Below are positions 31,866 through 63,866 of a DNA stretch of 64,000 nucleotides, in pieces. The notes beneath the pieces are model-generated. The model saw only the letters and a program-made list of their open reading frames with translations, ran no database searches and was not told where the DNA came from. The stretch comes from Oryzias latipes (taxonomy: Eukaryota > Chordata > Actinopteri > Beloniformes > Adrianichthyidae). Position 1 is the stretch's first letter. Each line of letters begins with the position of its first letter. Location: positions 1,103,985-1,167,984 of the forward strand of contig NC_019870.2 of assembly GCF_002234675.1 (NCBI RefSeq), given 5' to 3'. Position numbers and translations under genes: made by a program.

Positions 31866-31935
31866 ATTAAAGCCGCAAGCGGCGTTGTATGGCCCGCAGA
31901 CGCAACCCGCCTTCCACGCCCAATTCTACGCACCA

Positions 31936-32003
31936 CCGCCCTCACCGCCCTCACCGCCCTCACCGCCCTCACCGCCCTCACCGCCCTCACCGCCCTCACC
32001 GCC
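31936..32003. repeat. (CACCGCCCT)n 9-bp minisatellite
   Basis: Seven to eight units of CACCGCCCT. The equivalent place in the second 2.29-kb copy (about 34228-34250) has only a non-expanded CACCGCCTCCCTCACTGCCC, so this expansion is specific to copy 1. Confidence 0.9.
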
Positions 32004-32032
32004 CACTTTTGATGAAGGCTAGTCAAAACTGC

Positions 32033-32530
32033 ATATGCTAATTATGCTAACTATGTTAGCTATGCTAATGTGGCTAAAAGTGCTAGCATAGCGATCAGCA
32101 TCATCAACTGACTCAGAAAAACACATTACCTAAAATGCTACTTATGCTAACTATGCTAGCTATGCTAATGTGGCTAATAGTGCTAGCATAGCGATCAGCA
32201 TCATCAACTGACTCAGAAAAACACATTACCTAAAATGCTAATTATGCTAATTATGCTAACTATGCTAATGTGGCTAAAAGTGCTAGCATAGCGATCAGCA
32301 TCATCAACTGACTCAGAAAAACACATTACCTAAAATGCTAATTATGCTAACTATGCTAGCTATGCTAATGTGGCTAAAAGTGCTAGCATAGCGATCAGCA
32401 TCATCAACTGACTCAGAAAAACACATTACCTAAAATGCTAATTATGCTAACTATGCTAGCTATGCTAACTTAGCTAAAAGTGCTAGTTTAGCGATCAGCA
32501 TCATCAACTGACTCAGAAAAACAAATTCCT
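32033..32530. repeat. 101-bp tandem repeat, copy 1 (about five units)
   Basis: Each unit contains TGCTAATTATGCTAACTATG, then a GCTAGCATAGCGATCAGCAT segment, and ends CAACTGACTCAGAAAAACAC. Within units there is a further 10-bp ATGCTAACT periodicity. Confidence 0.92.
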
Positions 32531-34157
32531 CCATTGGTAAGAGTTATATGTCATAAGTTGCTAAAAAAAACACTTTTTCCAAAATGGCGGCTTTTCTTTT
32601 GATTTTATCTCCATAGCAACCATTTTATGTTTTGGTCCCCTCGGGAGGACGAACAGATTGACGTCAGTTTCGGACAAATCGGTAAAAGTAAACTTTTTGT
32701 CGTCCTTAGCAACAGTGGTTTTATGCTAACCACGCCCACATTCCTTATATGTCCATATCCAGTGTTTTTCAATGTAATCTGTTTCAGGCATGAGCGCATG
32801 CATTCAATTTTCACTGTATTGTATTGAAATGCATGAGAGTTATAACAGTGCGCCACTTTGCTAGCTTGCCACGCACACGCCGTTCAAAAACTACAACTTC
32901 TAATTCCAACATTTTTTCCACAGTAGCTTGCCATTGATGCCCAAAAAGTTTCGAGACGATTGATGAAAATTCCAACGACAAGTTTACGTTTGAATCCGGT
33001 GGTAAAGGTGTTTTTTATAGAAAATTCAAGATGGCCGCCTTTTCCCGAGGTCAAAGGTCGACGAAACTCCAGAGGTGATTATACACTTACGCTAGGGACA
33101 TGCGAGTCAAATTTCGTCAAAATCGCTCGAAAAAAAGTTCATTTTTCCATATTGTGTAAAAACGCGAAAAACGCAAAATGGTAGATTTTGGCACAAAATG
33201 GCCGCCAAACCGTAGGTCGTGTCGCCATCACGTAATGATTTCAAAACTTTCTTTGGATATACCCGACAAAGTTATCTGAGTTTCGTTAGCCGATTCTTAA
33301 AAATAAAATCCGAAAAAAATTTTTTTAGCCGAGTCAGCACTTTTTTTTGCGACGGTTTTTTGTTTACCACGGCCACATTCCTTTATCGATTTTGTCGTGC
33401 GTGACATCGTTTTGTTCAGTGTGGGCCAGGGTATCGCATATTTCAGTTTCAGGCTATTCCGATAAAATATGTGCGAGCTAGCTAAAATGGCGACGGTTGC
33501 GAATTCGCCACGCGCACGCGTTTCAAATTCTACAACTTCTAATTCCAACATTTTGTCCACAGTAGCTTGCCATTGATGCCCGAGAAGTTTCAAAAAGATC
33601 GATAAAAATCCCTAGGACGAGTTTTCGTTTGTATCCGTCAATAAAGGTGCTTTTTTATGAAAATTCAAGATGGCCGCCCCTTCCCAAGGTCAAAGGTCAA
33701 CAAAACTTCTTTGGTAGTTGTAGAATCGTGTTTGTGGCATGTGTATGAAATTTCGTGAAAATCGCTTGAACAAAAGTGTAGTTTTCCCATATTGTCAAAA
33801 AACACGAAAATCGCCATTTCTCTGAGTTCGCCACAAAATGGCCGCCAAGCCGTAGGTCGTGTGGCCATCCCATAATGATTTCATAACTTCTTTGGGATAT
33901 CTCCAACACGCGTGTTTTGGTTTCGTAACTGTATTTCAAAATATTTTTTTTTGGCCCCATAAGCGATTTTCGGCCCATTCATTTTTTTTACGGGATCGCT
34001 CGCCGTGATGTCATTGACTTCGGGGGGGTGGCGTTCTCTTTGCCGAAAATTCATTTTCAATTTATCCCAGGTGTGTGCCAATTTTGGTGAGTTTTCGGGT
34101 ATGTGGCGGGGGTCAAAATTAAGCTCAAAGACGCCGTTAGTGTGCAAGAAGAATAAT

Positions 34158-36385
34158 AATTAAAGCCGCATGCGGCGTTGTATGGCCCGCAGACGCAACC
34201 CGCCTTCCACGCCCAACTCTACGCACCACCGCCTCCCTCACTGCCCACTTTTGATAAAGGCTCGTCAAAACGGCTTTTGCTAATTATGCTAACTATGCTA
34301 GCTATGCTGATTTGGCTAAAAGTGCTAGCATTGCGATCAGCATCATCAACTGACTCAGGAAAACAGATTATTAAAAATGCTAATTATGCTAACTATGCTA
34401 GCTATGCTAATGTGGCTAAAAGTGCTAGCATAGCGATCAGAATCATCAACTGACTCAGAAAAACACATTACCTAAAATGCTAATTATGCTAACTATGCTA
34501 ACTATGCTAATGTGGCTAAAAGTGTTAGCATAGCGATCAGCATCATCAACTGACTCAGAAAAACACATTACCTAAAATGCTAATTATGCTAACTATGCTA
34601 GCTATGCTAATGTGGCTAAAAGTGCTAGCATTGCGATCAGCATCATCAACTGACTCAAAAAACACATTGCCTAAAATGCTTATTATGCTAACTATGCTAG
34701 CTATGCTAAAGTGGCTAAAAGTACTAGCATAGCGATCGGCATCATCAACTGACTCAGAAAAACACATTCCTCCATTGGTGAGAGCTATATGCCATAAGTT
34801 GATAAAAAACCACTTTTTCCAAAATGGCGGCTTTTTTGTTTATTTTATCTCCATAGCAACCATTTTATGTTTTGTTCCCCTTGGGAAGACGAACAGATTG
34901 ACGTCAGTTTCGGACAAATCGGTAAAAGTAAACTTTTTGTCGTCCTTAGCAACAGTGGTTTTATGCTAACCACGCCCACATTCCTTATATGTCCATATCC
35001 AGTGTTTTTCAATGTATTCAGTTTCAGCCATGAATGCATGCGTTCAATTTTCACTGTATTGTATTGAAATGCATGGGAGTTATAACACTGCGCCACTTTG
35101 CTAGCTTGCCACGCGCACGCCGTTCAAAATCTACAACTTCTAATTCCAACATTTTTTCCACAGTAGCTTGCCGTTGATGCCCAAAAAGTTTCGAGACGAT
35201 CGATGAAAATTTCAACGACAAGTTTACGTTTGAATCTGGTGGTAAAGGTGTTTTTTATAGAAAATTCAAGATGGCCGCCTTTTCCCGAGGTCAAAGGTCG
35301 ACAAAACTCCAGAGGTGATTGTAAACTTACACTAGGGACATGCGCGTCAAATTTCGTGAAAATCGCTCGAAAAAAAGTTCATTTTTCCATATTGTGTAAA
35401 AACGCGAAAAACTCAAAATGGCGGATTTTGGCACAAAATGGCCGCCAAACGGTCGGTCGTGTCGCCATCACATAATGATTTCAAAACTTTGTTTGGATAT
35501 ACCCGACAAAGTTATCTGGGTTTCGCTAGCCGATTCATAAAAAAAAAAATCCGAAATTTTTTTTTTTAGCCGAGTCAGCACTTTTTTTTGCGACCGTTTT
35601 TTGTTTACCACGGCCACATTCCTTTATCGATTTTGTCGTATGTGACATCGTTTTGTTCAGTGTGGGCCAGGTTATCGCATATTTCAGTTTCAGGCTATTT
35701 CGATAAAATATGTGCGAGCTAGCTAAAATGGCGACGGTTGCGAATTCGCCACGCGCACGTGTTTCAAATTCTACAACTTCTAATTCCAACATTTTGTCCA
35801 CAGTAGCTTGCCATTGATGCCCGAGAAATTTCAAAAAGATCGATAAAAATCCCTAGGACGAGTTTTCGTTTGTATCCGTTACTAAAGGTGCTTTTTTTTG
35901 AAAATTCAAGATGGCCGCCCCTTGCCAAGGTCAAAGGTCAACGAAACTTCTTTGGTTATTGTAGAATCATGGTCTTGGTATGTGTGTGCAATTTCGTGAA
36001 AATCGCTTAAACAAAAGTCTTGTTTTCCCATATTGTCAAAAAACACGAAATTCGCCATTTTTCTGAGTTCGCCACAAAATGGCCGACAAGCCGTAAGTCG
36101 TGTGGCCATCCCATAATGATTTCATAACTTCTTTGGGATATCCCCAACACGCGTGTTTTGGTTTCGTAACAGTATTTCAAAATATTTTTTTTTGGCCCCA
36201 TAAGCGATTTTCGGCCCATTCATTTTTTTTACGGGAACGCTCGCCGTGATGTCATCATCGTGGGGGGGGTGATGTTGTCTTTTCCGAAAATTCATTTTCA
36301 ATTTATCCCAGATGTGTGCCAATTTTGGTGAGTTTTCGGGTATGTGGCGGGGGTCAAATTTGAGCTCAAAGACGCCGTTAGAAAC
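34158..36385. repeat. 2.29-kb unit, second copy
   Basis: Direct repeat of 31866-34157 at high identity (mid-90s percent by eye). It begins with GCCGCATGCGGC, a perfect 12-bp palindrome where copy 1 has GCCGCAAGCGGC. It includes its own 101-bp array at about 34262-34770. Confidence 0.9.
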
Positions 36386-36404
36386 AATAATAATAATAAT
36401 AATA

Positions 36405-37555
36405 ATAAAAAAACATTCGAAAAACAATATAGAAGTTTTTGCAGTCAGGTGGCCCATGTATTTCAATGCGGCCTGTCTTTTACTATAGGCTGGGCATGTC
36501 TTTTTGGCTTTAAACCCGTTCTTTGAGGGCTTTTTGGGGCTTTTTTGGTTTTTTGTCGTCATTTTTGCGACTACAATTTTGACGTTTGTGCGTTGGTGTT
36601 GTGCGTGTGTGTGTGTATTTTTGTTGTGTTACACAATTGTCGTGTCATTTTGTGCTTTGGGCGACTTTTGACCCCATTTTTTGGCGTTTTGACGCGTTTT
36701 TTTGACGTTTTGGACTTTTTGAGTGTTCGACCCTCGTACCAGTTACAATATGGTCCTTGCAGTCTATGACTGCTGCGGGCCATAATAATAATAAAAAAAC
36801 ATTCGAAAAACAATATAGAAGTTTTTGCAGTCAGGTGGCCCATGTATTTCAATGCGGCCTGTCTTTTACTATAGGCTGGGCATGTCTTTTTGGCTTTAAA
36901 CCCGTTCTTTGAGGGCTTTTTGGGGCTTTTTTGGTTTTTTGTCGTCATTTTTGCGACTACAATTTTGACGTTTGTGCGTTGGTGTTGTGCGTGTGTGTGT
37001 GTATTTTTGTTGTGTTACACAATTGTCGTGTCATTTTGTGCTTTGGGCGACTTTTGACCCCATTTTTTGGCGTTTTGACGCGTTTTTTTGACGTTTTGGA
37101 CTTTTTGAGTGTTCGACCCTCGTACCAGTTACAATATGGTCCTTGCAGTCTATGACTGCTGCGGGCCATAATAATAATAAACGAAGCAGAAACAATATAG
37201 AAGTTTTTGCAGTCAGGTGGCCTATGTATTTCAATGCGGCCTGTCTTTTACTATAGGCTGGGCATGTCTTTTTGGCTTTAAACCCGTCTTTTGAGGGCTT
37301 TTTGGGGCTTTTTTGGGTTTTTGTCGTCATTTTTGCGACTACAATTTTGACGTTTGTGCGTTGGTGTTGTGCGTGTGTGTGTGTATTTTTGTTGCGTTAC
37401 ACAATTGTCGTGTCGTTGTGTGCTTTGGGCGACTTTTGACCCCATTTTTTGGCGTTTTGACGCGTTTTTTTGACGTTTTGGACTTTTTGAGTGTTCGACC
37501 CTCGTACCAGTTACAATATGGTCCTTGCAGTCTATGACTGCTGCGGGCCATAATA
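36405..37555. repeat. 386-bp direct repeat, three copies
   Basis: Units start at about 36405, 36790 and 37185, spaced 386 and 382 bp apart. Each runs from AACAATATAGAAGTTTTTGC to ATGACTGCTGCGGGCCATAA. The first two are essentially identical; the third has a few substitutions. The repeated ORFs are by-products of the repeat. Confidence 0.92.
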
Positions 37556-37779
37556 ACAAAAAAACCTCTGAAAAAAACAATTCTGGGAATCTAAACAACA
37601 TACAGTATTAAAGGTTTACAGTTCTTCATTGGAATCCTTGTCTTCTTAAATAAATGTTTTATTACACGCAGAAACTCTTACTTAAAACGGGTAATTTGGT
37701 TTTCTGAACCATGTTTAGTTTATAGTTTTGGTTTTAATTGTTTTATTTTCTCAGCAGTTGTAGTTCATCTTTCCGCCAC

Positions 37780-39311: not shown

Positions 39312-40920
39312 ATGACCAGGTGGGCAAGAGCCAACAATGTCCACAGACACAAACCAGCAGAGGCCACGCCCTGGAGTCAGCTGAGGGGGCGGGGCTCCGG
39401 GGGCGGGGCTCATGGCGCTCCTCTGAGGAGGACTCAGGCCAGCAGCTCCTCGGCAAAGAGTCGGAAGAAGAAGGACTACACCAATGAGGATGTGAATGGA
39501 TTCCTGCAGTATCTGAAGGAGAAGGGAGCCCCTCTGCCTGCAGGGGGGCAGGAGCGGCAGAAGGGGGGGCAGGAGCTCGTGCAGGAGGTGGGGGAGGCTC
39601 TGAGGAAAGACCAGAGGAGGGAGACCCGGAGAGTGAAGAGGCAGACGGACAAGAAGAACAAAATGGTGAGAGTCTTTCCGAGGAGCTTCCTGTTTGTATT
39701 TCTCCTTCATTGTGAGTCTGAGTCAGAACGGGGCGTTTGAGCTGACGGCGCCCCCTGCTGTCGTCTCCTCAGCTCTGCTTCAACTGCAGGAAGCCGGGTC
39801 ACGGTCTGGCCGACTGTCCGGAGGCCGACGCCGACCGGGAGATGGGCCGAGGCATCTGCTACCGCTGCGGCTCCACCGAGCACGAGATCCACAAATGCAG
39901 AGCCAAAGTGGACCCGGCTCTGGGTGAGTCCTGTAGCCCCGCCCCCTTCTGCAAAGCATCCCCCCTCCGTCTGAGAACCGCTGCTGCTTCCCCACAGGAG
40001 ATTATCCGTATGCCAAGTGCTTCATCTGCGGTCAAACCGGCCACCTGTCGCGCTCCTGTCCGGACAACCCCAAAGGACTTTACGCAGAAGGTACAGACTC
40101 CGCCCACAGGCCTGTCACAGAATGTGGCGTCCGAGTTTCAGCTGCACCCATAAAGCTCAGCTGATCGTTTAAGCGAGGCTCTCTGACCGGGGGAGGGGGG
40201 GTTGTCGTCTGCAGGAGGTTCCTGTCGTCTTTGCGGGTCGGTGGAACATTTCCAGAAGGACTGTCCCGAGCATCAAGCTGCCAGTAAGTGACATTCATCT
40301 GAAGAATGCAATTCCCCCAGAGGGGTTTGGAACACGACAATAGATGTAAAGGAAGAGGAAGACATTTTTATGAATCACAGAGAACGCAGTGGAATTCCAG
40401 ACCATCATCTGTGGAAGTTAAAAAGAAACAGCAAAGCAGGAAAAATGTCGTTACTGACGTTTTGTCACAAAACATCCCAACAATACAGACAAATAATTCC
40501 TAATAAACTACAAGTTTCCTTCTTGCACCAAACCATCAAACGTCAGCTTTAGTTGGTTTTTCCTCTGCTGCTCATCTGTTCTCTTATTTTGTAAAGAACA
40601 TTGCCATGAAGGAACCTTTATTTTGAAGGAACGCCTGATGATGCACAGCAGCCCCCCCTGGTGGTTGGTGTCAGAACTGACTCAAATAAAATAGTGTTGA
40701 CTTGTTAGTGGAACAGAGTCCCTCCATGCTTTGTTATGCAGCTTTAGGCCTACTGATGATGAACTAGAGCAGAGGCCAGCTCTTCATCACTTCCTGTTTC
40801 TCCTCAGCTCACTCCGTGACTTTGGCATGGTTGTCCAACAACATGAGCGCCGACCACGAGGACGTGCACGTTCCGGTGAAGAAGGCCAAACCCAAGCAGA
40901 CCAAAGTGGTGACGTTCTGA
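39312..40920 (+). CDS. zcchc9: Zinc finger CCHC domain-containing protein 9
   Basis: Coding exons are 39312-39665, 39773-39923, 39998-40090, 40215-40283 and 40808-40920. They sum to 780 nt (259 aa plus stop) with GT-AG junctions and a continuous frame. The start MTRWARANN and the DYTNEDVNGFLQYLKEKG block match the vertebrate family. A basic stretch (RRETRRVKRQTDKKNK) precedes four zinc knuckles of form CX2CX4HX4C, near residues 120, 146, 175 and 202: CFNCRKPGHGLADC, CYRCGSTEHEIHKC, CFICGQTGHLSRSC and CRLCGSVEHFQKDC. The tail ends KVVTF. The family is a nucleolar/nuclear RNA-binding protein; human ZCCHC9 is about 271 aa. Exon 2 starts at 39299 after TTTCAG, so this ATG is the first after the splice. 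The 5' part of the protein is richer in Gly/Ser/Arg than I recall for mammals. Confidence 0.95.
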
Positions 40921-48933: not shown

Positions 48934-51900
48934 ATGAACACGGCTGTGCGGGAGATCCACATATCCTCCAAACCTGGCTCCTCCTACTTCCTGCGTGTGG
49001 ACTGGGAGGGGCGGAGCTTAGCATCAGGCTTCAGGGTGCTGCTCACCGATGGCCAGGATGCTTGGAGTGGAGAAGGTAAAGATGACCCTCGGCATGACGG
49101 GATAGAGCTCACACATGCACACGTTTACGTGCACACCCCTCTGATGAGGAAATGACAAACGGACCGTTTCTGTGACCACGCAGTGGGCGCGGCCACCATA
49201 GGCGGCGAGGCGGAGGAGCTGGAGATGACGAGGGAGAAGTACGTCCAGGACCTGGAGCGGGCGCTGACCGGAGCAGAACCACCGGACCCCTACAGCTTTA
49301 GCCTGAGTCCAGAACCGCCGGGCCGCAGCGTCACGCTGACGTACGAGAAGATGCAGAAGGAGATCTCGGTGAGTCCTGACGCAGACGTGTGAGGCTAGAA
49401 TACAAACACACACGCTGTTCTTTCACGCATGCACAGTAAGTGTTTCTCTCAAATGTGCACTCTGTGTTCCACAAAAACACAATAAATGTTTCACAAAGAT
49501 CATTTTTAGGCACACTTGTGTTACAGAGTGACAGAATGTGCATTTATAAACCTCACCTCCTTAGTGAGACAAATCCTGACAAATCCTGAACTAATGTCAC
49601 CATTGGCTAATGAATCTGTCAATCAAACTCATCAACAAAGCAGGCGTGTTCGCTTTCAGCCAATCGAACGGCCCCTCAGACTTTCTCTACACAAACGTCA
49701 GGACGTGGGGCTTTTCATGCAGACGTTGGTCAGACAGGTAAAGGTGACGTTTCAATCGCTGGCCTGTGGTTTTCCTCGGTCAACATCATGGCGCCCTGCG
49801 GTCAGCTGTTTGTGATGGGCGTGGCCTGTCACAAACGTTCTTCAGCTCTTTTCTTCTGCTGAACATCTGCTACCTGATGCTTACAGACTGTTTACTTCTT
49901 TTCTCATTTATTCTTGTGGCTGAATGTTCTAGAAAGATCTTTTGGGGAATTTTAAATCCTTTAATTTCTCATCTAACAAAAGTCTTTTATTCAGTGATTC
50001 AGTGATTTTCCATCATTTCCCCAAACCCTGAAATCATCGCCACACTTTTGGTTTTGTTTCATGAAAAGTGTTTGATTGTTTTGGCTGTGAAGCCTCATGT
50101 TTTTGGCTCAAACGCTGTTGTCATGGCGACGGCCGAATGGAAAGGGAGCCATGAATGGATGAAAAACAAAAACGAGAGTCAGGAGTGAGTTTAGAGGTGT
50201 CTGTTTCCCTCGGAGTGGAAAAACTCAGCGCTCGCTCCAAGTCATGATGAGAGGCTTAAGTGGGACCCTCCCCCCTCTAATCTGTGTGGGGGGGCAGCAT
50301 CCCAGGTGTTACCTGAGCAGGTCCACATTCCAGATTCTTCCCGTTGAATGTTCGGACGGAGCTGAGAGGAACTTCAGAGCGTCTGAGGAGTTTCACAACA
50401 TCTGTCTGTGAGAGGAACATCGGGTTTTGGGTTCCAGATTTATGAACGGAGCCAAAGCGGTTCGAACTGGATTACAGGGAACTCTGGTCTAAAGCTGTTC
50501 AAGAAAAATGTAGATATTATATACATAAACGATAGAGAGTTGCGTAATATTTGTCATCTATTGATGACAAAGACTCTCCTGAAAGCAGTTTCAGCTTTGA
50601 GGTTCTGCAGTTCTAAGGGGCTCCCTCCTCCTCACAGGACTTTCAGTTCCAAACAGCCGTTTCCATGACAACCCCGACATCATCAGTCCAGGCTGCCATC
50701 CTGAATCAGACATCATGCAGGCTCAGCCTGACCGCTCAGGGTGGCTCCAGAACCAGCTGGGAGGAACTGGGTCCAGTTTTTCTGAGTTTATTCAACATTT
50801 CCTTAAAGTGCTGACGTCATGTTTGGAAGACCAAGGAAGGATCATGAACATGACTCGTGACAAAGTTTCCTTGTTTCCATCCAGCCCTGCTCAAACACAC
50901 CTGCCCTTCATCATCAGGTGCCTGAGAGTCTGATGATGAGCTGAATCCGGTGTTTGTCATGTGTGAGTCATGTGTGCGTCAGGTGTGCGTCAGGTGTGCG
51001 TCAGGTGTGTGTCAGGTGTGTGTCAGGTGTGTGTCAGGTATGTGTCAGGTGTGTGTCAGGTGGGTGTCAGGTATGTGTCAGGTGTGTGTCAGGTGGGTGA
51101 CATGTGCGTGTCATGTGCGTGTCAGGTCCGTGTCAGGTGTGTGTCAGGTGGGTGTCAGGTGGGTGTCAGGTGTGTGTCAGGTGTGTGTCAGGTGGGTGTC
51201 AGGTGGGTGTCAGGGGGGTGTCTGGTGTGTGTCATGTGTGTGTCATGTGTGTGTCAGGAGTGTGTCAGGTGGGTGTCAGGGGGGTGTCAGGTGTGTGTCA
51301 GGTGTGTGTCATGTTTGTGTCAGGTGTGTGTCAGGTGTGTGTCAGGTGGGTGTCAGGTGGGTGACAGGTGGGTGTCGTGTGTGTCATGTGTGTGTCATGT
51401 GTGTGTCATGTGTGTGTCATGTGTGTGTCAGGTGTGTGTCAGGTGTGTGTCAAGTGGGTGTCAGGTGGCTGTCAGGTGGCTGTCAGGTGGCTGTCAGGTG
51501 TGTGTCAGGTGTGTGTCAGGTGTGTGTCATGTGTGTGTCATGTGTGTGTCATGTGTGTGTCAGGTGGGTGTCAGGTGGGTGTCAGGTGTGTGTCAGGTGG
51601 GTGTCAGGTGTGTGTGTCAGGTGTGTGTCAGGTGGGTGTCGGGTGTGTGTCAGGTGTGTGTCATGTGTGCGTCAGGTGTGCGTCATGTGTGTGTCCGGTG
51701 TGTGTCCGGTGGGTGTCAGGTGGGTGTCAGGTGTGTGTCAGGTGTGTGTCAGGTGGGTGTCATGTGTGTGTCAGGTGTGTGTCAGGTGGGTGTCAGGTGG
51801 GTGTCAGGTGTGTGTCAGGTGTGTGTCAGGTGTGTGTCAGGTGGGTGTCATGTGTGTGTCATGTGTGTGTCATGTGTGTGTCATGTGTGTGTCAGGTGTG

Positions 51901-54900
51901 TGTCAGGTGTGTGTCAGGTGTGTGTCAGGTGTGTGTCATGTGTGTGTCATGTGTGTGTCATGTGTGTGTGTCAGGTGTGTGTCAGGTGGGTGTCGGGTGT
52001 GTGTCAGGTGTGTGTCATGTGTGCGTCAGGTGTGCGTCATGTGTGTGTCCGGTGTGTGTCAGGTGGGTGTCAGGTGGGTGTCAGGTGGGTGTCAGGTGTG
52101 TGTCAGGTGTGTGTCAGGTGGGTGTCATGTGTGTGTCAGGTGTGTGTCAGGTGGGTGTCAGGTGGGTGTCAGGTGTGTGTCAGGTGGGTGTCAGGTGGGT
52201 GTCAGGTGTGTGTCAGGTGGGTGTCAGGTGGGTGTCAGGTGTGTGTCAGGTGGGTGTCAGGTGTGTGTCAGGTGGGTGTCATGTGTGTGTCATGTGTGTG
52301 TCATGTGTGTGTCAGGTGGGTGTCAGGTGGGTGTCAGGTGGGTGTCAGGTGGGTGTCATGTGCGTGTCAGGTGCGTGTCAGGTGCGTGTCATGTGTGTGT
52401 GTCAGGTGGGTGTCATGTGGGTGTCATGTGGGTGTCATGTGTGTGTCAGGTAGGTGTCAGGGGGGTGTCATGTTTGTGTCAGGTGTGTGTCAGGTGGGTG
52501 TCAGGTGGGTGACAGGTGTGTGTCATGTGTGTGTCAGGGGGGTGTCATGTGTGTGTCAGGTGTGTGTCAGGTGGGTGTCAGGGGGGTGTCAGGTGTGTGT
52601 CATGTGTGTGTCAGGGGGGTGTCATGTGTGTGTCAGGTGGGTGTCAGGTGGGTGTCATGTGTGTGTCAGGTAGGTGTCAGGGGGGTGTCATGTTTGTGTC
52701 AGGTGTGTGTCAGGTGGGTGTCAGGTGGGTGACAGGTGGGTGTCATGTGTGTGTCATGTGTGTGTCATGTGTGTGTCAGGTGTGTGTCAGGTGTGTGTCA
52801 GGTGGGTGTCAGGTGGGTGTCAGGTGGGTGTCAGGTGGGTGACAGGTGTGTGTCAGGTGTGTGTCAGGTGTGTGTCAGGTGGGTGTCAGGTGTGTGTCAG
52901 GTGTGTGTCATGTGTGTGTGTCATGTGTGTGTCAGGTGTGTGTCAGGTGTGTGTCATGTGTGTGTCATGTGTGTGTCATGTGTGTGTCATGTGTGTGTCA
53001 GGTGGGTGTCAGGTGTGTGTCAGGTGGGTGTCAGGTGGGTGTCAGGTGCGTGTCAGGTGCGTGTCATGTGTGTGTGTCAGGTGTGTGTCAGGTGTGTGTG
53101 TCAGGTGGGTGTCAGGGGGGTGTCAGGTGTGTGTCAGGTGTGTGTCAGGTGGGTGTCTTGTGTGTCAGGGGGTGTCAGGTGTGTGTCATGTTTGTGTCAG
53201 GTGTGTGTTAGGTGGGTGTCAGGTGGGTGACAGGTGGGTGTCGTGTGTGTCATGTGTGTGTCATGTGTGTGTCATGTGTGTGTCAGGTGGGTGTCAGGTG
53301 GGTGACAGGTGTGTGTCAGGTGTGTGTCAGGTGTGTGTCAGGTGTGTGTCAGGTGGGTGTCAGGTGTGTGTCAGGTGTGTGTCAAGTGTGTGTCATGTGT
53401 GTGTGTCAGGTGTGTGTGTCAGGTGTGTGTCAGGTGGGTGTCATGTGTGTGTCAGGTGGGTGTCAGGGGGGTGTCAGGTGTGTGTCAGGTGGGTGTCAGA
53501 TGTGTGTCAGATGTGTGTCAGGTGTGTGTCATGTGTGTGTCATGTGTGTGTCATGTGTGTGTCAGGTGTGTGTCAGGTGGGTGTCAGGTGTGTGTCAGGT
53601 GTGTGTCAGGTGTGTGTCATGTGTGTGTCATGTGTGTGTCATGTGTGTGTCAGGTGTGTGTCAGGTGGGTGTCAGGTGGGTGTCAGATGTGTGTCAGGTG
53701 GGTGTCAGGTGTGTGTGTCAGGTGGGTGTCGGGTGGGTGTCATGTGGGTGTCATGTGGGTATCATGTGTGTGTCAGGTAGGTGTCAGGGGGGTGTCAGGT
53801 GGGTGTCAGGTGTGTGTCAGGTGGGTGTCATGTGTGTGTCATGTGGGTGTCAGGTGTGTGTCAGGTGGGTGTCAGGTGGGTGTCAGGTGTGTGTCAGGTG
53901 TGTGTCAGGTGGGTGCCAGGTGTGTGTCAGGTGGGTGTCAGGTGGGTGTCAGGTGGGTGTCAGGTGTGTGTCAGGTGGGTGTCATGTGTGTGTCATGTGT
54001 GTGTCATGTGTGTGTCATGTGTGTGTCAGGTGGGTGTCATGTGTGTGTCAGGTGTGTGTCAGGTGTGTGTCAGGTGTGTGTCAGGTGGGTGTCAGGTGGG
54101 TGTCAGGTGGGTGTCAGGTGGGTGTCAGGTGTGTGTCAGGTGTGTGTCAGGTGGGTGTCATGTGTGTGTCATGTGTGTGTCAGGTGGGTGTCAGGTGGGT
54201 GTCAGGTGCGTGTCAGGTGGGTGTCATGTGCGTGTCAGGTGCGTGTCAGGTGCGTGTCATGTGTGTGTGTCAGGTGGGTGTCAGGTGGGTGTCAGGTGGG
54301 TGTCATGTGGGTGTCATGTGGGTGTCATGTGTGTGTGTCAGGTGGGTGTCAGGTGGGTGTCAGGTGGGTGTCATGTGTGTGTCATGTGTGTGTCATGTGT
54401 GTGTCAGGTGGGTGTCAGGTGGGTGTCAGGTGCGTGTCAGGTGGGTGTCATGTGCGTGTCAGGTGCGTGTCAGGTGCGTGTCATGTGTGTGTGTCAGGTG
54501 GGTGTCAGGTGGGTGTCATGTGGGTGTCATGTGGGTGTCATGTGTGTGTGTCAGGTGGGTGTCAGGTGGGTGTCAGGTGGGTGACAGGTGTGTGTCATGT
54601 GTGTGTCAGGGGGGTGTCATGTGTGTGTCATGTGTGTGTCAGGGGGGTGTCATGTGTGTGTCAGGTGTGTGTCAGGTGGGTGTCAGGGGGGTGTCAGGTG
54701 GGTGTCATGTGTGTGTCAGGTAGGTGTCAGGGGGGTGTCATGTTTGTGTCAGGTGTGTGTCAGGTGGGTGTCAGGTGGGTGTCAGGTGGGTGTCATGTGT
54801 GTGTCATGTTTGTGTCATGTGTGTGTCATGTGTGTGTCAGGTGTGTGTCAGGGGGGTGTCAGGTGGGTGTCATGTGTGTGTCAGGTAGGTGTCAGGGGGG

Positions 54901-57900
54901 TGTCATGTTTGTGTCAGGTGTGTGTCAGGTGGGTGTCAGGTGGGTGTCAGGTGGGTGTCATGTGTGTGTCATGTTTGTGTCATGTGTGTGTCATGTGTGT
55001 GTCAGGTGTGTGTCAGGTGTGTGTCAGGTGGGTGTCAGGTGGGTGTCAGGTGGGTGACAGGTGTGTGTCAGGTGTGTGTCAGGTGTGTGTCAGGTGGGTG
55101 TCAGGTGTGTGTCAGGTGTGTGTCATGTGTGTGTGTCAGGTGGGTGTCAGGTGGGTGTCAGGTGTGTGTCAGGGGGGTGTCAGGTGTGTGTCAGGTGGCT
55201 GTCAGGTGTGTGTCATGTGTGTGTCATGTGTGTGTCATGTGTGTGTCATGTGTGTGTCAGGTGTGTGTCAGGTGGGTGTCAGGTGGGTGTCAGGTGCGTG
55301 TCAGGTGCGTGTCATGTGTGTGTGTCATGTGTGTGTGTCAGGGGTGTGTCAGGTGTGTGTCAGGTGGGTGTCTTGTGTGTCAGGGGGTGTCAGGTGTGTG
55401 TCAGGTGTGTGTCATGTTTGTGTCAGGTGTGTGTTAGGTGGGTGTCAGGTGGGTGACAGGTGGGTGTCGTGTGTGTCATGTGTGTGTCATGTGTGTGTCA
55501 GGTGGGTGTCAGGTGGGTGACAGGTGTGTGTCAGGTGTGTGTCAGGTGTGTGTCAGGTGGGTGTCAGGTGTGTGTCAGGTGTGTGTCAAGTGTGTGTCAT
55601 GTGTGTGTGTCAGGTGTGTGTGTCAGGTGGGTGTCATGTGTGTGTCAGGTGGGTGTCAGGGGGGTGTCAGGTGTGTGTCAGGTGGGTGTCAGATGTGTGT
55701 CAGGTGTGTGTCATGTGTGTGTCATGTGTGTGTCATGTGTGTGTCATGTGTGTGTCAGGTGTGTGTCAGGTGGGTGTCAGATGTGTGTCAGGTGTGTGTC
55801 ATGTGTGTGTCAGGTGGGTGTCAGATGTGTGTCAGGTGGGTGTCAGGTTTGTGTGTCAGGTGGGTGTCGGGTGTCAGGGCTCCAGACTAACTTTTTTCAC
55901 TAGGAGCACTGTGGCCCCTAAATGAAAATTTTAGGGGCACAACCTGAAAATTTAGGGGCGCATAACGTAAATCAACATGCAAACCAGATCTTCTAATTTC
56001 CACTGTATTATAAATACACTAAATAAAATAAATAAAGTAAATAAATACTTTAATTATAGATGCAAAAATTACAATCTGCTTTTTCAAATTCAGTGTCAGA
56101 TTTTATTCTGCACTTTTGAAGATGCAACAAGAAGGTAAACTGACAGCACCATCGCTGTCATGACAGAAAAAATAATAAAAAAATTACCATAAATTTAGAA
56201 TAAAAAAAGTTTTTAGTAACAAGTGATTACCATAATAACCTTTCGGTCATTTCACAGTTAAGAACAATACTTAAATGTATGTAAACATTAGGGGATGGAA
56301 ATTCATGTTGGCGACACCAAATACGTGCAGCCAAGATGCACAATAATTTGAGATCACCCAGATGGACGTAACGCTGCACAGATCACCTGGTGTGAGACAT
56401 ATTTTTGTTTTTGCTCTAACATCAGCTGTCAATCAAAACCAAAATATCACCAGAAAGGGGCGGAAGCAAGACCCCAACCTGACCAAACACAGCTGGAAAT
56501 TTAGTACTGAACTGACTGAAAGCTGCCCTACAGACTACAAAACAATGCATTATGGGACATGCGTCCTGATGGGTTTTTGTAGTTCACAGATCAATTAAAA
56601 TAATTTAAAATACCAACTGATTTAAAAAAGGCTACATACATCACAAAACATTGAAATAATTATAAAAGATGTAATATCACAGATCATACTTAGGGGGAGA
56701 GGCATAATTATTAAATTGAATGTTAAGGACAACTCCAACTTCCTGTTGCAGCTTCGCCTTCATGCCCCCCCCCCCCCGGGCGCTGGTTCATCTCAAACAC
56801 GTCTATCGTTGCATATTCCACACGTGTTTTAAGTGCGTCTAAGACTAAATCGTGTTGTCGCTCACACGTGTTTATGTTCGAGCCCCGTTAGCTGTCACTC
56901 ATGTAGGTGTGGGACATTTATGCTCCTCAGCTGACCATCTCCCGCGGGAGCGGTGTGCTGTCGTTACAGCCGTGCATGAGAGCCGTGGTTTGCTTCGCGA
57001 GTTTGAGACCCCTGCTGTACACTCTGGCACTGGTACACTAGCCGCAGGTCGAAAGAACGAATCAATAGTTCGCTCGCTCATAGCTCAGACGCACATATCA
57101 GGTTGTGATGATTTGTCTCCGTTTCCTTCCCACAGACGTTAACGCGCACTCGATTATCTCTAGGCCCCGCCCCTCCACATATTTTAGCCACTTGCAGTGA
57201 CTTTCCCTATTCTGTGCGACTGGATGTAAAATTCAGTCGCACAGTCTCAAATTTTGGTCGCAAAATGCGAGCAAATGGTCGCAGTCTGGAGCCCTGGGTG
57301 TGTGTCGGGTGTGTGTCAGGTGTGTGTCATGTGTGCGTCAGGTGTGCGTCATGTGTGTGTCCGGTGTGTGTCAGGTGTGTGTCAGGTGGGTGTCATGTGT
57401 GTGTCATGTGGGTGTCAGGTGTGTGTCATGTGTGTGTCATGTGTGTGTCAGGTGGGTGTCAGGTGGGTGTCATGTGCGTGTCAGGTGGGTGTCAGGTGGG
57501 TGTCAGGTGGGTGTCAGGTGGGTGTCATGTGCGTGTCAGGTGTGTGTCAGGTGTGTGTCAGGTGTGTGTCAGGTGTGTGTCATGTGTGTGTGTCATGTGT
57601 GTGTCAGGGGGGTGTCAGGTGTGTGTCAGGTGTGTGTCAGGTGGGTGTCATGTGTGTGTGTCAGGGGGGTGTCAGGTGGGTGTCAGGTGTGTGTCAGGTG
57701 GGTGTCATGTGTGTGTCATGTGTGTGTCATGTGGGTGTCAGGTGTGTGTCATGTGTGTGTCATGTGTGTGTCAGGTGGGTGTCATGTGCGTGTCAGGTGG
57801 GTGTCAGGTGGGTGTCATGTGCGTGTCAGGTGCGTGTCAGGTGTGTGTCAGGTGTGTGTCAGGTGTGTGTCATGTGTGTGTGTCAGGTGTGTGTCAGGTG

Positions 57901-60900
57901 TGTGTCAGGGGGGTGTCAGGGGGGTGTCAGGTATGTGTCATGTGTGTGTCAGGTGGGTGTCAGGGGGGTGTCAGGTGTGTGTCATGTGTGTGTCAGGTGG
58001 GTGTCATGTGTGTGTCAGGTGGGTGACAGGTGGGTGTCATGTGTGTGTCATGTGTGTGTCATGTGTGTGTCAGGTGGGTGACAGGTGGGTGTCAGGTGGG
58101 TGACAGGTGTGTGTCAGGTGTGTGTCATGTGTGTGTCAGGTGTGTGTCAGGTGTGTGTCAGGTGTGTGTCAGGTGTGTGTCATGTGTGTGTGTCAGGTGT
58201 GTGTCAGGTGGGTGTCAGGTGGGTGACAGGTGGGTGTCATATGTGTGTCATGTGTGTGTCAGGTGTGTGTCAGGTGTGTGTCAGGTGTGTGTCAGGTATG
58301 TGTCATGTGTGTGTGTCAGGTGTGTGTCAGGTGTGTGTCATGTGTGTGTGTCAGGTGTGTGTCAGGTGGGTGTCAGGTGTGTGTCAGGGGGGTGTCAGGT
58401 GTGTGTCAGGTGGGTGTCAGGTGTGTGTCAGGGGGGTGTCATGTGTGTGTCATGTGTGTGTCAGGGGGGTGTCATGTGTGTGTCAGGTGTGTGTCAGGTG
58501 GGTGTCAGGGGGGTGTCAGGTGGGTGTCATGTGTGTGTCAGGTAGGTGTCAGGGGGGTGTCATGTTTGTGTCAGGTGTGTGTCAGGTGGGTGTCAGGTGG
58601 GTGTCAGGTGGGTGTCATGTGTGTGTCATGTTTGTGTCATGTGTGTGTCATGTGTGTGTCAGGTGTGTGTCAGGGGGGTGTCAGGTGGGTGTCATGTGTG
58701 TGTCAGGTAGGTGTCAGGGGGGTGTCATGTTTGTGTCAGGTGTGTGTCAGGTGGGTGTCAGGTGGGTGTCAGGTGGGTGTCATGTGTGTGTCATGTTTGT
58801 GTCATGTGTGTGTCATGTGTGTGTCAGGTGTGTGTCAGGTGTGTGTCAGGTGGGTGTCAGGTGGGTGTCAGGTGGGTGACAGGTGTGTGTCAGGTGTGTG
58901 TCAGGTGTGTGTCAGGTGGGTGTCAGGTGTGTGTCAGGTGTGTGTCATGTGTGTGTGTCAGGTGGGTGTCAGGTGGGTGTCAGGTGTGTGTCAGGGGGGT
59001 GTCAGGTGTGTGTCAGGTGGCTGTCAGGTGTGTGTCATGTGTGTGTCATGTGTGTGTCATGTGTGTGTCATGTGTGTGTCAGGTGTGTGTCAGGTGGGTG
59101 TCAGGTGGGTGTCAGGTGCGTGTCAGGTGCGTGTCATGTGTGTGTGTCATGTGTGTGTGTCAGGGGTGTGTCAGGTGTGTGTCAGGTGGGTGTCTTGTGT
59201 GTCAGGGGGTGTCAGGTGTGTGTCAGGTGTGTGTCATGTTTGTGTCAGGTGTGTGTTAGGTGGGTGTCAGGTGGGTGACAGGTGGGTGTCGTGTGTGTCA
59301 TGTGTGTGTCATGTGTGTGTCAGGTGGGTGTCAGGTGGGTGACAGGTGTGTGTCAGGTGTGTGTCAGGTGTGTGTCAGGTGGGTGTCAGGTGTGTGTCAG
59401 GTGTGTGTCAAGTGTGTGTCATGTGTGTGTGTCAGGTGTGTGTGTCAGGTGGGTGTCATGTGTGTGTCAGGTGGGTGTCAGGGGGGTGTCAGGTGTGTGT
59501 CAGGTGGGTGTCAGATGTGTGTCAGGTGTGTGTCATGTGTGTGTCATGTGTGTGTCATGTGTGTGTCATGTGTGTGTCAGGTGTGTGTCAGGTGGGTGTC
59601 AGATGTGTGTCAGGTGTGTGTCATGTGTGTGTCAGGTGGGTGTCAGATGTGTGTCAGGTGGGTGTCAGGTTTGTGTGTCAGGTGGGTGTCGGGTGTCAGG
59701 GCTCCAGACTAACTTTTTTCACTAGGAGCACTGTGGCCCCTAAATGAAAATTTTAGGGGCACAACCTGAAAATTTAGGGGCGCATAACGTAAATCAACAT
59801 GCAAACCAGATCTTCTAATTTCCACTGTATTATAAATACACTAAATAAAATAAATAAAGTAAATAAATACTTTAATTATAGATGCAAAAATTACAATCTG
59901 CTTTTTCAAATTCAGTGTCAGATTTTATTCTGCACTTTTGAAGATGCAACAAGAAGGTAAACTGACAGCACCATCGCTGTCATGACAGAAAAAATAATAA
60001 AAAAATTACCATAAATTTAGAATAAAAAAAGTTTTTAGTAACAAGTGATTACCATAATAACCTTTCGGTCATTTCACAGTTAAGAACAATACTTAAATGT
60101 ATGTAAACATTAGGGGATGGAAATTCATGTTGGCGACACCAAATACGTGCAGCCAAGATGCACAATAATTTGAGATCACCCAGATGGACGTAACGCTGCA
60201 CAGATCACCTGGTGTGAGACATATTTTTGTTTTTGCTCTAACATCAGCTGTCAATCAAAACCAAAATATCACCAGAAAGGGGCGGAAGCAAGACCCCAAC
60301 CTGACCAAACACAGCTGGAAATTTAGTACTGAACTGACTGAAAGCTGCCCTACAGACTACAAAACAATGCATTATGGGACATGCGTCCTGATGGGTTTTT
60401 GTAGTTCACAGATCAATTAAAATAATTTAAAATACCAACTGATTTAAAAAAGGCTACATACATCACAAAACATTGAAATAATTATAAAAGATGTAATATC
60501 ACAGATCATACTTAGGGGGAGAGGCATAATTATTAAATTGAATGTTAAGGACAACTCCAACTTCCTGTTGCAGCTTCGCCTTCATGCCCCCCCCCCCCCC
60601 GGGCGCTGGTTCATCTCAAACACGTCTATCGTTGCATATTCCACACGTGTTTTAAGTGCGTCTAAGACTAAATCGTGTTGTCGCTCACACGTGTTTATGT
60701 TCGAGCCCCGTTAGCTGTCACTCATGTAGGTGTGGGACATTTATGCTCCTCAGCTGACCATCTCCCGCGGGAGCGGTGTGCTGTCGTTACAGCCGTGCAT
60801 GAGAGCCGTGGTTTGCTTCGCGAGTTTGAGACCCCTGCTGTACACTCTGGCACTGGTACACTAGCCGCAGGTCGAAAGAACGAATCAATAGTTCGCTCGC

Positions 60901-63809
60901 TCATAGCTCAGACGCACATATCAGGTTGTGATGATTTGTCTCCGTTTCCTTCCCACAGACGTTAACGCGCACTCGATTATCTCTAGGCCCCGCCCCTCCA
61001 CATATTTTAGCCACTTGCAGTGACTTTCCCTATTCTGTGCGACTGGATGTAAAATTCAGTCGCACAGTCTCAAATTTTGGTCGCAAAATGCGAGCAAATG
61101 GTCGCAGTCTGGAGCCCTGGGTGTGTGTCGGGTGTGTGTCAGGTGTGTGTCATGTGTGCGTCAGGTGTGCGTCATGTGTGTGTCCGGTGTGTGTCAGGTG
61201 TGTGTCAGGTGGGTGTCATGTGTGTGTCATGTGGGTGTCAGGTGTGTGTCATGTGTGTGTCATGTGTGTGTCAGGTGGGTGTCAGGTGGGTGTCATGTGC
61301 GTGTCAGGTGGGTGTCAGGTGGGTGTCAGGTGGGTGTCAGGTGGGTGTCATGTGCGTGTCAGGTGTGTGTCAGGTGTGTGTCAGGTGTGTGTCAGGTGTG
61401 TGTCATGTGTGTGTGTCATGTGTGTGTCAGGGGGGTGTCAGGTGTGTGTCAGGTGTGTGTCAGGTGGGTGTCATGTGTGTGTGTCAGGGGGGTGTCAGGT
61501 GGGTGTCAGGTGTGTGTCAGGTGGGTGTCATGTGTGTGTCATGTGTGTGTCATGTGGGTGTCAGGTGTGTGTCATGTGTGTGTCATGTGTGTGTCAGGTG
61601 GGTGTCATGTGCGTGTCAGGTGGGTGTCAGGTGGGTGTCATGTGCGTGTCAGGTGCGTGTCAGGTGTGTGTCAGGTGTGTGTCAGGTGTGTGTCATGTGT
61701 GTGTGTCAGGTGTGTGTCAGGTGTGTGTCAGGGGGGTGTCAGGGGGGTGTCAGGTATGTGTCATGTGTGTGTCAGGTGGGTGTCAGGGGGGTGTCAGGTG
61801 TGTGTCATGTGTGTGTCAGGTGGGTGTCATGTGTGTGTCAGGTGGGTGACAGGTGGGTGTCATGTGTGTGTCATGTGTGTGTCATGTGTGTGTCAGGTGG
61901 GTGACAGGTGGGTGTCAGGTGGGTGACAGGTGTGTGTCAGGTGTGTGTCATGTGTGTGTCAGGTGTGTGTCAGGTGTGTGTCAGGTGTGTGTCAGGTGTG
62001 TGTCATGTGTGTGTGTCAGGTGTGTGTCAGGTGGGTGTCAGGTGGGTGACAGGTGGGTGTCATATGTGTGTCATGTGTGTGTCAGGTGTGTGTCAGGTGT
62101 GTGTCAGGTGTGTGTCAGGTATGTGTCATGTGTGTGTGTCAGGTGTGTGTCAGGTGTGTGTCATGTGTGTGTGTCAGGTGTGTGTCAGGTGGGTGTCAGG
62201 TGTGTGTCAGGGGGGTGTCAGGTGTGTGTCAGGTGGGTGTCAGGTGTGTGTCAGGTGTGTGTCAGGTGGGTGTCAGGTGGGTGTCAGGTGGCTGTCAGGT
62301 GTGTGTCATGTGTGTGTCAGGTGTGTCTCAGGTGTGTGTCAGGTGTGTGTCATGTGTGTGTCATGTGTGTGTCAGGTGTGTGTCAGGTGGGTGTCAGGTG
62401 TGTGTGTCAGGTGTGCGTCATGTGTGCGTCATGTGTGCGTCAGGTGGGTGTCAGGTGGGTGTCAGGTGGGTGTCAGGTGGCTGTCAGGTGTGTGTCATGT
62501 GTGTGTCAGGTGTGTGTCAGGTGTGTGTCAGGTGTGTGTCAGGTGTGTGTCATGTGTGTGTCAGGTGGGTGTCAGGTGTGTGTCAGGTGTGTGTCAGGTG
62601 TGTGTCATGTGTGTGTCAGGTGGGTGTCAGGTGGGTGTCAGGTGGGTGTGTCAGGTGTGCAGGGCATCATGGAAAACATGGAGGACATTGTTCCCCGAGC
62701 ACCAGGGTTGGGAAGCACTGGTTTAGCGGCAGCTGTAAAACAAAAAGAGCAGAAACAAAACCAAACAGAGAACTTCTGTTCTGGGTTGAGGTGGTCCCGA
62801 TCCGAGGACCCCCAACGGTTCTGACAGAACCACCGTCACAGGGTTTGAGGTCCGACTCCAAAAGGACTGAATCAGCTGGATTTCCGGTTTAACATGATTC
62901 AAAGAAATGAAGGCTTATTTGTTTAAACTCATTTTTTTTAACCGCGAAAACAGGCCGTGACATAAAAGATTTAAGCTAAACTAAAATAGAACTTTCAGGG
63001 ATAGATTAGGATTTTAGGATCCACCCGTCAGGAGAGCTAAAAAGCTGAGACGCTTCTAAATCATCAAACTGAAAAAAAAGAATGTTGCAAGGAGGGGGGC
63101 CCTTGAACGGAGCCCTGGGGGACTCCAGACTAAAGGGAGAGCTGGAGCACCTCAGACTTGTAACCCCCCCCCCCCCTCTTTCTCTTTCTGTAACCCCTTT
63201 CCTTCTTCATCACACCGTTAGAGTTCTGTCTTAACCGTGAAAACCTGCTGAGATCGATCAGATTGAACCCAAAAACAGGAATCTTAAAATGCTGGAAAAA
63301 GATTCATACCAAATCCTGAGTCGGAACCATCAACTGAACCTTAAAGCAACGGAAAAACCACACATTTTGATAAATGACGGACATTGGACCACAACGATCC
63401 TGGTCTGTTTTTGTCAACTTCTCCAAGTTTAGATTTCAAGTTTCAAATAGAAGAGCTGATTTTATTTTTAGTGAGTAATGTCTTACAGAGACAGCAGCTT
63501 TCACCACATTTAACTGGAAACAGCTGAGTCTGGACTGTCAGAGATCCACCAGGAGTCTTCTGGCTGCAGACCTGAAAGCAGAAGATTAAAGGATCTGCGG
63601 TTCTGCAGGCCCACATCCACAAACTGCTTTTATTTGTTCCAGTTCAGACTAGGCTCAGCTCTCCTGGAGGCGGAGCTCCGGCCAGCGGAGGCGCTGAGGC
63701 AGCTGCTGCTCCACAGCCTGCAGCGAGGAGACAGCCTCCAGAACCAGAACCAGAAGCTGCAGGAGGACAACCAGCGGCTGAAGCAGGAGCAGCAACGCAT
63801 CTGTGCAGA
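48934..63809 (+). CDS. xrcc4: DNA repair protein XRCC4, N-terminal part (gene continues beyond window)
   Basis: Coding exons seen are 48934-49075 (142 nt), 49184-49368 (185 nt) and 63643-63809 (167 nt), with GT-AG junctions and consistent phases (1, 0, 2). They encode 164 residues plus two bases. The head domain begins MNTAVREIHISSKPGSSYFL and includes VDWEGRSLASGFRVLLTDGQ, then EEAEELEM-type sequence, REKYVQDLERALTG and PYSFSLS, matching vertebrate XRCC4 order. The third exon starts FRLGSALLEAEL and runs into a Gln/Leu-rich helix (LQNQNQKLQEDNQRLKQEQQ), the start of the dimerisation coiled coil. XRCC4 is the nuclear scaffold of DNA ligase IV in non-homologous end joining, and its head contacts XLF. 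The ligase-binding coil and the tail lie outside. The 14.3-kb intron between the second and third coding exons holds the giant minisatellite. Confidence 0.93.
49369..50953. other. xrcc4 intron, left unique part
   Basis: Single-copy-looking intron with no recognised element, running up to the minisatellite. Confidence 0.4.
50954..55874. repeat. 11-bp minisatellite, first block (about 447 units)
   Basis: Head-to-tail units of consensus TGTCAGGTGTG, with frequent variants TGTCATGTGTG, TGTCAGGTGGG, TGTCAGGGGGG and TGTCAGGTGCG, and occasional 13-bp units with an extra GT. All units point the same way. It is strongly G/T-biased on the plus (xrcc4 sense) strand. Because 11 is not a multiple of 3, each plus frame cycles through the same 33-nt period, giving long overlapping ORFs with an 11-residue Cys/Val-rich repeat. 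These are not genes. Confidence 0.97.
54608..58430. repeat. 3,822-bp higher-order block, copy 1
   Basis: This segment, made of minisatellite, hAT-like element and minisatellite, is followed directly by a nearly identical second copy at 58431-62253. Variant units occur in the same order in both copies. Left identity begins near the TGTCAGGGGGG unit at 54607 (58429 in copy 2). Right identity ends near 58432 versus 62255. Confidence 0.92.
55875..57296. mobile_element. hAT-like non-autonomous transposon inside the minisatellite, copy 1
   Basis: The 1,422-bp insert has perfect 14-bp terminal inverted repeats: CAGGGCTCCAGACT (55875-55888) and AGTCTGGAGCCCTG (57283-57296). The CAGGG start is typical of hAT. 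The flanks are minisatellite, so the expected 8-bp duplication cannot be read cleanly (TCGGGTGT versus GGTGTGTG). No transposase motif is visible, so it is probably mobilised in trans. It contains a C-run near 56765 and ORFs of 78 and 96 codons without known domains. Confidence 0.8.
57297..59696. repeat. 11-bp minisatellite, second block (about 218 units)
   Basis: Continuation of the same array between the two hAT-like copies. It contains the joint of the 3.82-kb tandem duplication near 58430. Confidence 0.96.
58431..62253. repeat. 3,822-bp higher-order block, copy 2
   Basis: Direct tandem copy of 54608-58430. The only difference I noticed is one extra C in the C-run of the hAT-like element (near 60590), which shifts the offset from 3,822 to 3,823. 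Confidence 0.92.
59697..61119. mobile_element. hAT-like non-autonomous transposon, copy 2
   Basis: A 1,423-bp copy of 55875-57296 with the same 14-bp inverted repeats and the same flanking units. It arose by segmental tandem duplication, not by a second transposition, because the flanking minisatellite is duplicated with it. Confidence 0.85.
61120..62658. repeat. 11-bp minisatellite, third block (about 140 units)
   Basis: The last part of the array. The final 400 bp (62256-62658) lies outside the 3.82-kb duplication. The array stops at TGGGTGTGTCAGGTGTGCAG. Confidence 0.96.
62659..62720. mobile_element. hAT-like terminal fragment at the array's 3' edge
   Basis: CCCCGAGCACCAGGGTTGGG followed by AAGCACTG (ending 62720) resembles the terminus of hAT elements (inverse of CAGTGCTTCCCAACC). 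No partner end was found before 50954, so only one side of an old element is identified. Confidence 0.45.
62721..63642. other. xrcc4 intron, right unique part
   Basis: Intron sequence with a C-run near 63165 and no recognised gene or element. It ends with a TTTATTTGTTCCAG acceptor before the exon at 63643. Confidence 0.45.
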
Positions 63810-63814
63810 GTAAA

Positions 63815-63866
63815 CAAGCACAACACACACACATGCACACACAGGCATATGCACACATGCACAGGT
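63815..63866. repeat. (CA)n-rich microsatellite with ATGCA variants
   Basis: Imperfect CACACA / CATGCACA repeats just inside the intron after the last xrcc4 exon seen here. Confidence 0.75.

Follow-up and report, generated by a model that had tools for sequence, protein, structure and literature searches.

The closest described case that we found is the intronic VNTR of human CACNA1C (TRACT), in which a 30-bp unit is repeated over 3 to more than 30 kb (PMC13131567, in the part of the article available). In a teleost, the growth hormone gene of Sparus aurata carries polymorphic minisatellites in introns 1 and 3 (PMC3045353, available excerpt). A VNTR is also located in intron 3 of human XRCC4, according to the title of a reference cited in PMC4322983, and when genic tandem-repeat variants of humans and chimpanzees are ranked by divergence-to-diversity ratio, one of the ten lowest lies in XRCC4 (PMC13308034, available excerpt).

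We analyzed one assembled sequence, a stretch of 64,000 nucleotides of fish DNA (the window), which contains a long array of an 11-bp unit (Table 1). Like the CACNA1C VNTR, this array is intronic, of kilobase scale (3 to more than 30 kb there, 11.7 kb here), and composed of many unit variants. It differs in the length of the unit (11 versus 30 bp), in its runs of identical units, which reach 26 in some CACNA1C alleles and at most four here, and in the duplication of a block that carries a transposon, none being noted for CACNA1C in the available text (PMC13131567). The S. aurata minisatellites resemble the array in being intronic and in a teleost gene; however, their polymorphism is on record, whereas the xrcc4 array is known from one sequence (PMC3045353, excerpt). 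With the human VNTR named in PMC4322983 (reference title), it shares the location in an XRCC4 intron. The array belongs to an already known type. The original prediction had called it unusual; the very long, single-orientation, intronic array stands, but the term was overstated, as kilobase-scale intronic VNTRs are known, for example from CACNA1C (PMC13131567, as excerpted), and intronic minisatellites that are polymorphic are known from fish growth hormone genes (PMC3045353, as excerpted). Among the matches listed in the literature, we found no direct report of this xrcc4 intronic array, and the available parts of PMC6603046 and PMC11172789 contain nothing on one.

We consider it probable that the locus is an ordinary, very long minisatellite of the VNTR type that is passive in the intron of a fish xrcc4 gene, grew by blocks, received one transposon insertion, and had its last block, of 3.82 kb, either duplicated or misassembled.

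Table 1. Location of the xrcc4 exons, the array, and the elements within the array (window coordinates).
Feature	Coordinates	Strand	Description and basis
xrcc4 first coding exon	48934..49075	+	tblastn with human XRCC4; joined frame
xrcc4 second coding exon	49184..49368	+	donor TCG/GTGAGT; tblastn, joined frame, Pfam PF06632
xrcc4 intron holding the array	49369..63642	+	14,274 bp, phase 0; homology, joined frame
xrcc4 third coding exon	63643..63809	+	acceptor TTTGTTCCAG/, weak donor AGA/GTAAAC; tblastn, homology, PF21924, joined frame
11-bp minisatellite array, with two transposon copies	50949..62659	+	consensus GGTGTGTGTCA, ~797 decoded units; TRF, hit scan, unit decoding
Older internal duplication, first copy	52647..53587	+	offset about 2.2 kb; unit alignment
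Older internal duplication, second copy (inside block B)	54862..55780	+	unit and base alignment
Exact tandem duplication inside block B	54680..55009	+	165 bp (15 units); self-comparison
Block B, first duplicate (array, transposon, array)	54599..58420	+	matches 58421-62255
Block B', second duplicate	58421..62255	+	match extends 12 bp beyond the duplication unit
Inverted-repeat DNA transposon, first copy	55875..57296	.	1,422 bp; perfect 14-bp terminal inverted repeats CAGGGCTCCAGACT
Same transposon insertion, second copy	59697..61119	.	1,423 bp; identical flanks; one C more or less in the poly-C tract

Gene context and composition of the array

The xrcc4 exons were located by tblastn with human XRCC4 as query. 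When 48934-49075, 49184-49368, and 63643-63809 are joined, they form a single open frame of 164 codons plus 2 nt, and the exon phases match across 49368/63643 as had been predicted. A comparison of the joined translation with solved structures returned 17 distinct sequences at E <= 0.001, every one of them XRCC4 or an XRCC4 chimaera; the best match was XRCC4 in PDB 3ii6 (E 4.7e-31). The alignment to human XRCC4 contains small gaps elsewhere, and none at the 49368/63643 junction. Two Pfam matches were above their cut-offs, the XRCC4 N-terminal domain (PF06632, E 3.4e-25) and the XRCC4 coiled coil (PF21924, E 3.2e-8), so that both parts of the protein are encoded across the intron. Because the exons join in frame and match XRCC4 structures and both Pfam domains, the array looks to be located, in sense orientation, inside an intron of a fish xrcc4 gene; homology likewise supports the splice of 49368 to 63643, and normal splicing would presumably remove the array. 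The original placement between xrcc4 coding exons, in a 14.3-kb intron of which the array takes up the greater part, holds in light of the gapless homology at the junction and the Pfam domains. Intron 3 of human XRCC4 (codons 105/106) may be homologous to the array-bearing intron. Mammalian introns are large, and the presence of an intronic repeat in both human and fish XRCC4 may therefore be a coincidence. The donor of the third exon, AGA/GTAAAC (63807-63815), scores poorly (-1.5, with an approximate matrix).

TRF identified 50949-59696 and 61120-62659 as an array of period 11 with the consensus GGTGTGTGTCA. Wrap-around decoding divided 8,865 bp (8.87 kb) of repeat into 797 units in three blocks of 441, 216, and 140 units, a count that includes seven 20-bp pieces holding nearly two units and a few partial pieces at the block edges. 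Exactly 11 bp long are 710 of the 797 units, and three variants, with G or T at positions 1 and 5, account for 537 of these 710. A unit scan allowing up to two mismatches gave 791 matches within 50940-62665. The self-match at lag 11 in the first block (50949-55874) is 0.88, whereas in 100 dinucleotide-preserving shuffles it averaged 0.351 and did not exceed 0.371; the array is therefore not due to chance. Minisatellites are tandem repeats with a unit of roughly 7-100 bp, and here 797 units of period 11 lie head to tail in one array. The array is wholly in a single orientation: with up to one mismatch, the unit has no match on the - strand of the whole window, and outside the array the + strand contains one match before 50900 and none after 62700. 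These results agree with the original description of an array of about 800 units of 11 bp that spans 11.7 kb, contains about 8.9 kb of repeat, and has one orientation throughout. A 33-bp trimer of the unit had no matches in viral, bacterial, and archaeal contig collections, which is uninformative about fish.

The consensus unit contains no stop codon in any + frame, and an ORF finder reports frames of up to 583 aa within 50926-62824 (+). A coding array was ruled out: the stop-free frames (up to 583 aa) stem from the composition of the unit, and joining the exons in phase does not require them. Such frames are a trap for automatic annotation.

The transposon and the 3.8-kb tandem duplication

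Both interruptions of the array are one and the same insertion of about 1.42 kb: in each case the terminal inverted repeats (14 bp) are perfect and the flanks identical. There are two copies because the block with the insertion was duplicated. Uninterrupted versions of the insertion site are found at 51631 and 51985. Given these empty sites, and given that the array extends on both sides of the insertion, the array is older than the transposon. The longest stop-free stretch in the transposon is 97 codons, so the element is presumably non-autonomous. Non-autonomous inverted-repeat DNA transposons of the hAT type are known, and an 8-bp target duplication is usual for many hAT elements. The array transposon resembles hAT-type elements in its perfect 14-bp terminal inverted repeats CAGGGCTCCAGACT, which start with CAGGG, and in having no long open reading frame; a scan of stop-free stretches found none long enough for a transposase gene, 97 codons being too short. 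Unlike such elements, it does not have the usual 8-bp target-site duplication, since the flanks TCGGGTGT and GGTGTGTG differ. Five bp, GGTGT, abut each end, and the shared flank reaches 16 bp if one mismatch is allowed; the target is repetitive, and the target duplication is ambiguous. AATAAA occurs on the + strand of the transposon copies, near 59840.

The duplicated block was delimited by comparing 54599-58432 to 58421-62255: 3,834 bp match with no substitution and a single 1-bp indel, and this sole difference between blocks B and B' is C13 versus C14 in a poly-C tract. The 12-bp sequence GTGTGTGTCAGG is present at 54599, 58421, and 62244, and the duplication junction lies within this unit homology. 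Identity between the flanks is 0.87 for the 150 bp before and 0.85 for the 150 bp after the blocks, compared to an array background of 0.87 (mean; s.d. 0.025); the duplicated block is therefore sharp-ended. The second copy adds about 3.82 kb, one interruption included, and 58421-62243 contains about 218 units and 2,400 bp of repeat. The "800 units" thus are about 580 units and a second copy of about 218. Minus the duplicate copy, which makes up about a third of the stretch, the array is about 7.9 kb long. The original prediction overlooked this tandem duplication and the common identity of the two interruptions.

Blocks B and B' may be either the product of a genuine, very recent event or an assembly error. 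We lean toward a real duplication, with modest confidence. The lack of substitutions over 3,834 bp limits divergence to at most 0.078% (95% upper bound), which corresponds to an age ceiling of about 39,000-130,000 generations at an assumed rate of 1e-8 to 3e-9 per site per generation. We give a somewhat less than even chance to an artefact in which one block was entered twice; the true allele would then contain a single transposon and measure about 7.9 kb from one of these array edges to the other. The lack of any substitution and the single C13/C14 difference fit such an error, as a homopolymer indel is also expected from misassembly, and repeat arrays are generally prone to assembler errors. 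The window contains no gaps (N), which is weak evidence to the contrary, and further blocks within the array suggest that block duplication occurred here at several ages. If two haplotypes had wrongly been kept, the probability of seeing no difference would be about 1e-5 at 0.3% heterozygosity and 0.02 at 0.1%; because the absence of substitutions is unlikely at ordinary heterozygosity, a simple haplotig explanation is weak, whereas a read-overlap error may be the source.

If the duplication is real, the locus is a legible record of minisatellite growth by kilobase-size blocks, in which the transposon serves as an internal marker that separates block duplication from slippage. It would also be handy as a length-polymorphism marker, and could naturally serve to test if the splicing of a repair gene suffers from a long, donor-like array in sense orientation. 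An artefact would caution against taking copy numbers from assembled arrays.

Growth and variability of the array

Older layers of duplication were detected by aligning the array as a string of units. Between 52647-53587 and 54862-55780, 68 of the 88 aligned units are identical (score 84, versus less than 30 in each of six shuffles), and the base alignment has 2.9% substitutions and 10 gap openings. Four further block pairs were found. Three are free of substitutions: one offset by about 354 bp and one by about 224 bp, each with 11 gapped columns, and one offset by about 165 bp. In the fourth, offset by about 2.09 kb, substitutions amount to 1.9% and 53 columns are gapped. Three of these four pairs and a near relative of the 165-bp pair have a unit-alignment score of 31, with the reporting threshold of 30 barely below it. 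The right arm (57297-58420) and the 3' tail (62244-62659) were considered as old copies of the left arm, which found no support; their best unit-alignment scores were 14 and 12, compared to up to 18 and 20, respectively, in shuffled sequences (n=20 each).

In the left arm, the identity between adjacent units is 0.277, versus 0.163 expected and a maximum of 0.259 over all lags in 200 shuffles; this excess suggests local duplication. In the right arm, the corresponding value of 0.261 at lag 1 falls inside the range of that arm's shuffles (maximum 0.365). Identical units follow one another at most four times in a row, no more than in the shuffles. Runs of at least three identical units number 33 in the left arm, whereas 500 shuffles averaged 12.6 and never exceeded 24; the other two blocks show no excess of such runs, with 11 versus a shuffle maximum of 11, and 8 versus 10. 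Runs no longer than four argue against simple or ongoing slippage, and growth by many-unit blocks plus some local duplication fits the array better than slippage of perfect tracts alone.

The array would have expanded mainly through the duplication of blocks, of about 15 and up to about 350 unit-equivalents per event, presumably by out-of-register exchange or template switching among the near-identical 11-mers. A single insertion of the presumably non-autonomous inverted-repeat transposon would have followed within the array, and the final step would have been the head-to-tail duplication of the transposon-bearing 3.82-kb block, as a real recent event or through an assembly error.

The original prediction proposed that the locus is hypervariable in the population, and the exchange of kilobase blocks could indeed give rise to many length alleles. 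We place this proposal just short of an even chance. The B/B' duplication, if real, is young (divergence <=0.078%); fish growth hormone intronic minisatellites are polymorphic (PMC3045353, excerpt), and XRCC4 is the site of the human and chimpanzee tandem-repeat variant of low divergence-to-diversity ratio mentioned above (PMC13308034, excerpt). However, runs of identical units do not exceed four, and the CACNA1C VNTR, which is of similar size, underwent no new length changes in a four-generation pedigree, according to the available text of PMC13131567; length alone is therefore no proof of instability. The structural signs conflict: the 3.8-kb duplication, free of substitutions, points to recent change or to misassembly, whereas the short runs oppose instability by slippage.

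Splicing signals, RNA, and DNA structure

Donor-like 9-mers were scored with an approximate matrix, and splice sites were counted in the repeat only, excluding the two transposon copies. On the + strand, the repeat contains 477 donor-like 9-mers scoring at least 4, a density of 53.8 per kb; the corresponding density in 1-50900 (+) is 0.86 per kb. None occurs on the opposite strand of the repeat. CAG/GTGTGT accounts for 228 of the 477 and CAG/GTGGGT for 220. A score of at least 5, higher than that of three xrcc4 donors (4.2, 4.3, and -1.5), is reached by 461 sites in the repeat. GTGTGT has 895 overlapping matches in the 8.87 kb, and AATAAA is absent from the repeat. By a simple pyrimidine-tract rule, neither strand of the repeat contains an acceptor-like site; no exon would therefore be readily defined inside the repeat.

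It seems improbable to us that the array affects xrcc4 expression. Under such an effect, U1-donor-like CAG/GUGUGU or CAG/GUGGGU sites and UG-rich sites of the TDP-43 type would slow or regulate removal of the intron in a length-dependent manner. The 477 sense donor-like sites, their density relative to the rest of the strand, the 461 that outscore xrcc4 donors, and the 895 GTGTGT matches are in keeping with this possibility. In the portion of PMC10530927 available, UG repeats recruit the fly homologue of TDP-43 in a model, and TDP-43 interacts with XRCC4-ligase 4; an intronic VNTR affects ABCA7 splicing (PMC5954066, excerpt). Extending the TDP-43/UG-repeat model to the xrcc4 intron would be speculation by analogy. 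Against an effect on expression count the absence of acceptor-like sites under the simple rule, the orientation of the array, which is a coin toss, and the approximate nature of the donor matrix. The more far-reaching proposal, that a fast-changing array alters xrcc4 splicing through sense decoy donors, so that end-joining capacity would vary among individuals with array length, appears extremely improbable. We assume that the array is neutral. No Rfam family matched at the gathering threshold anywhere in the window, and a functional RNA was set aside on these grounds.

Switch-region R-loop elements combine strong GC skew with AGCT hotspots. A fragile element resembling an immunoglobulin switch region, formed by R-loops or G-quadruplexes, is very doubtful here. 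The coding strand has a GC skew of about 0.63-0.68 in windows composed entirely of repeat, and 18.7% of the repeat on the + strand lies in two-tetrad G-quadruplex motifs (G2, loops 1-7), compared to 2.5% (+) and 4.1% (-) of 1-50900. The mean G4Hunter score of the repeat is 0.73, with 9.3% of 25-bp windows at 1.2 or above. In contrast, three-tetrad motifs cover 0.0% of the repeat with loops of 1-7 and 3.2% with loops of 1-12, and the repeat contains no AGCT despite a skew of about 0.65. The G-quadruplex and switch-region possibility was set aside in view of the 0.0% short-loop three-tetrad cover and the absence of AGCT; given the 18.7% cover, the weaker two-tetrad form may occur.

The window contains additional repeats and frames. 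The stretch 31853-36400 comprises two tandem copies of about 2.3 kb (31853-34160 versus 34146-36400), an older duplication with 91.9% identity, and each copy bears an array of about five units of a 100-bp repeat. TRF reported three copies of a 386-bp unit at 36396-37564, with 97% matches between neighbors, and a second minisatellite at 5714-6137, with about 44 copies of the 10-bp unit CCCCTGCTGC. On the - strand, 556-3600 is an uninterrupted stop-to-stop frame of 1,015 codons in which endonuclease and reverse transcriptase domains were matched, apparently an intact frame of a non-LTR retrotransposon, and 13051-14448 is an uninterrupted 466-codon frame of a rhodopsin-type GPCR (PF00001, E 8.6e-69), which we take to resemble an alpha-2-adrenergic receptor. 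Upstream of xrcc4 and on the same strand, 39746-40150 contains a zinc-knuckle frame (PF00098, E 1.7e-5) that we presume to be possibly zcchc9.
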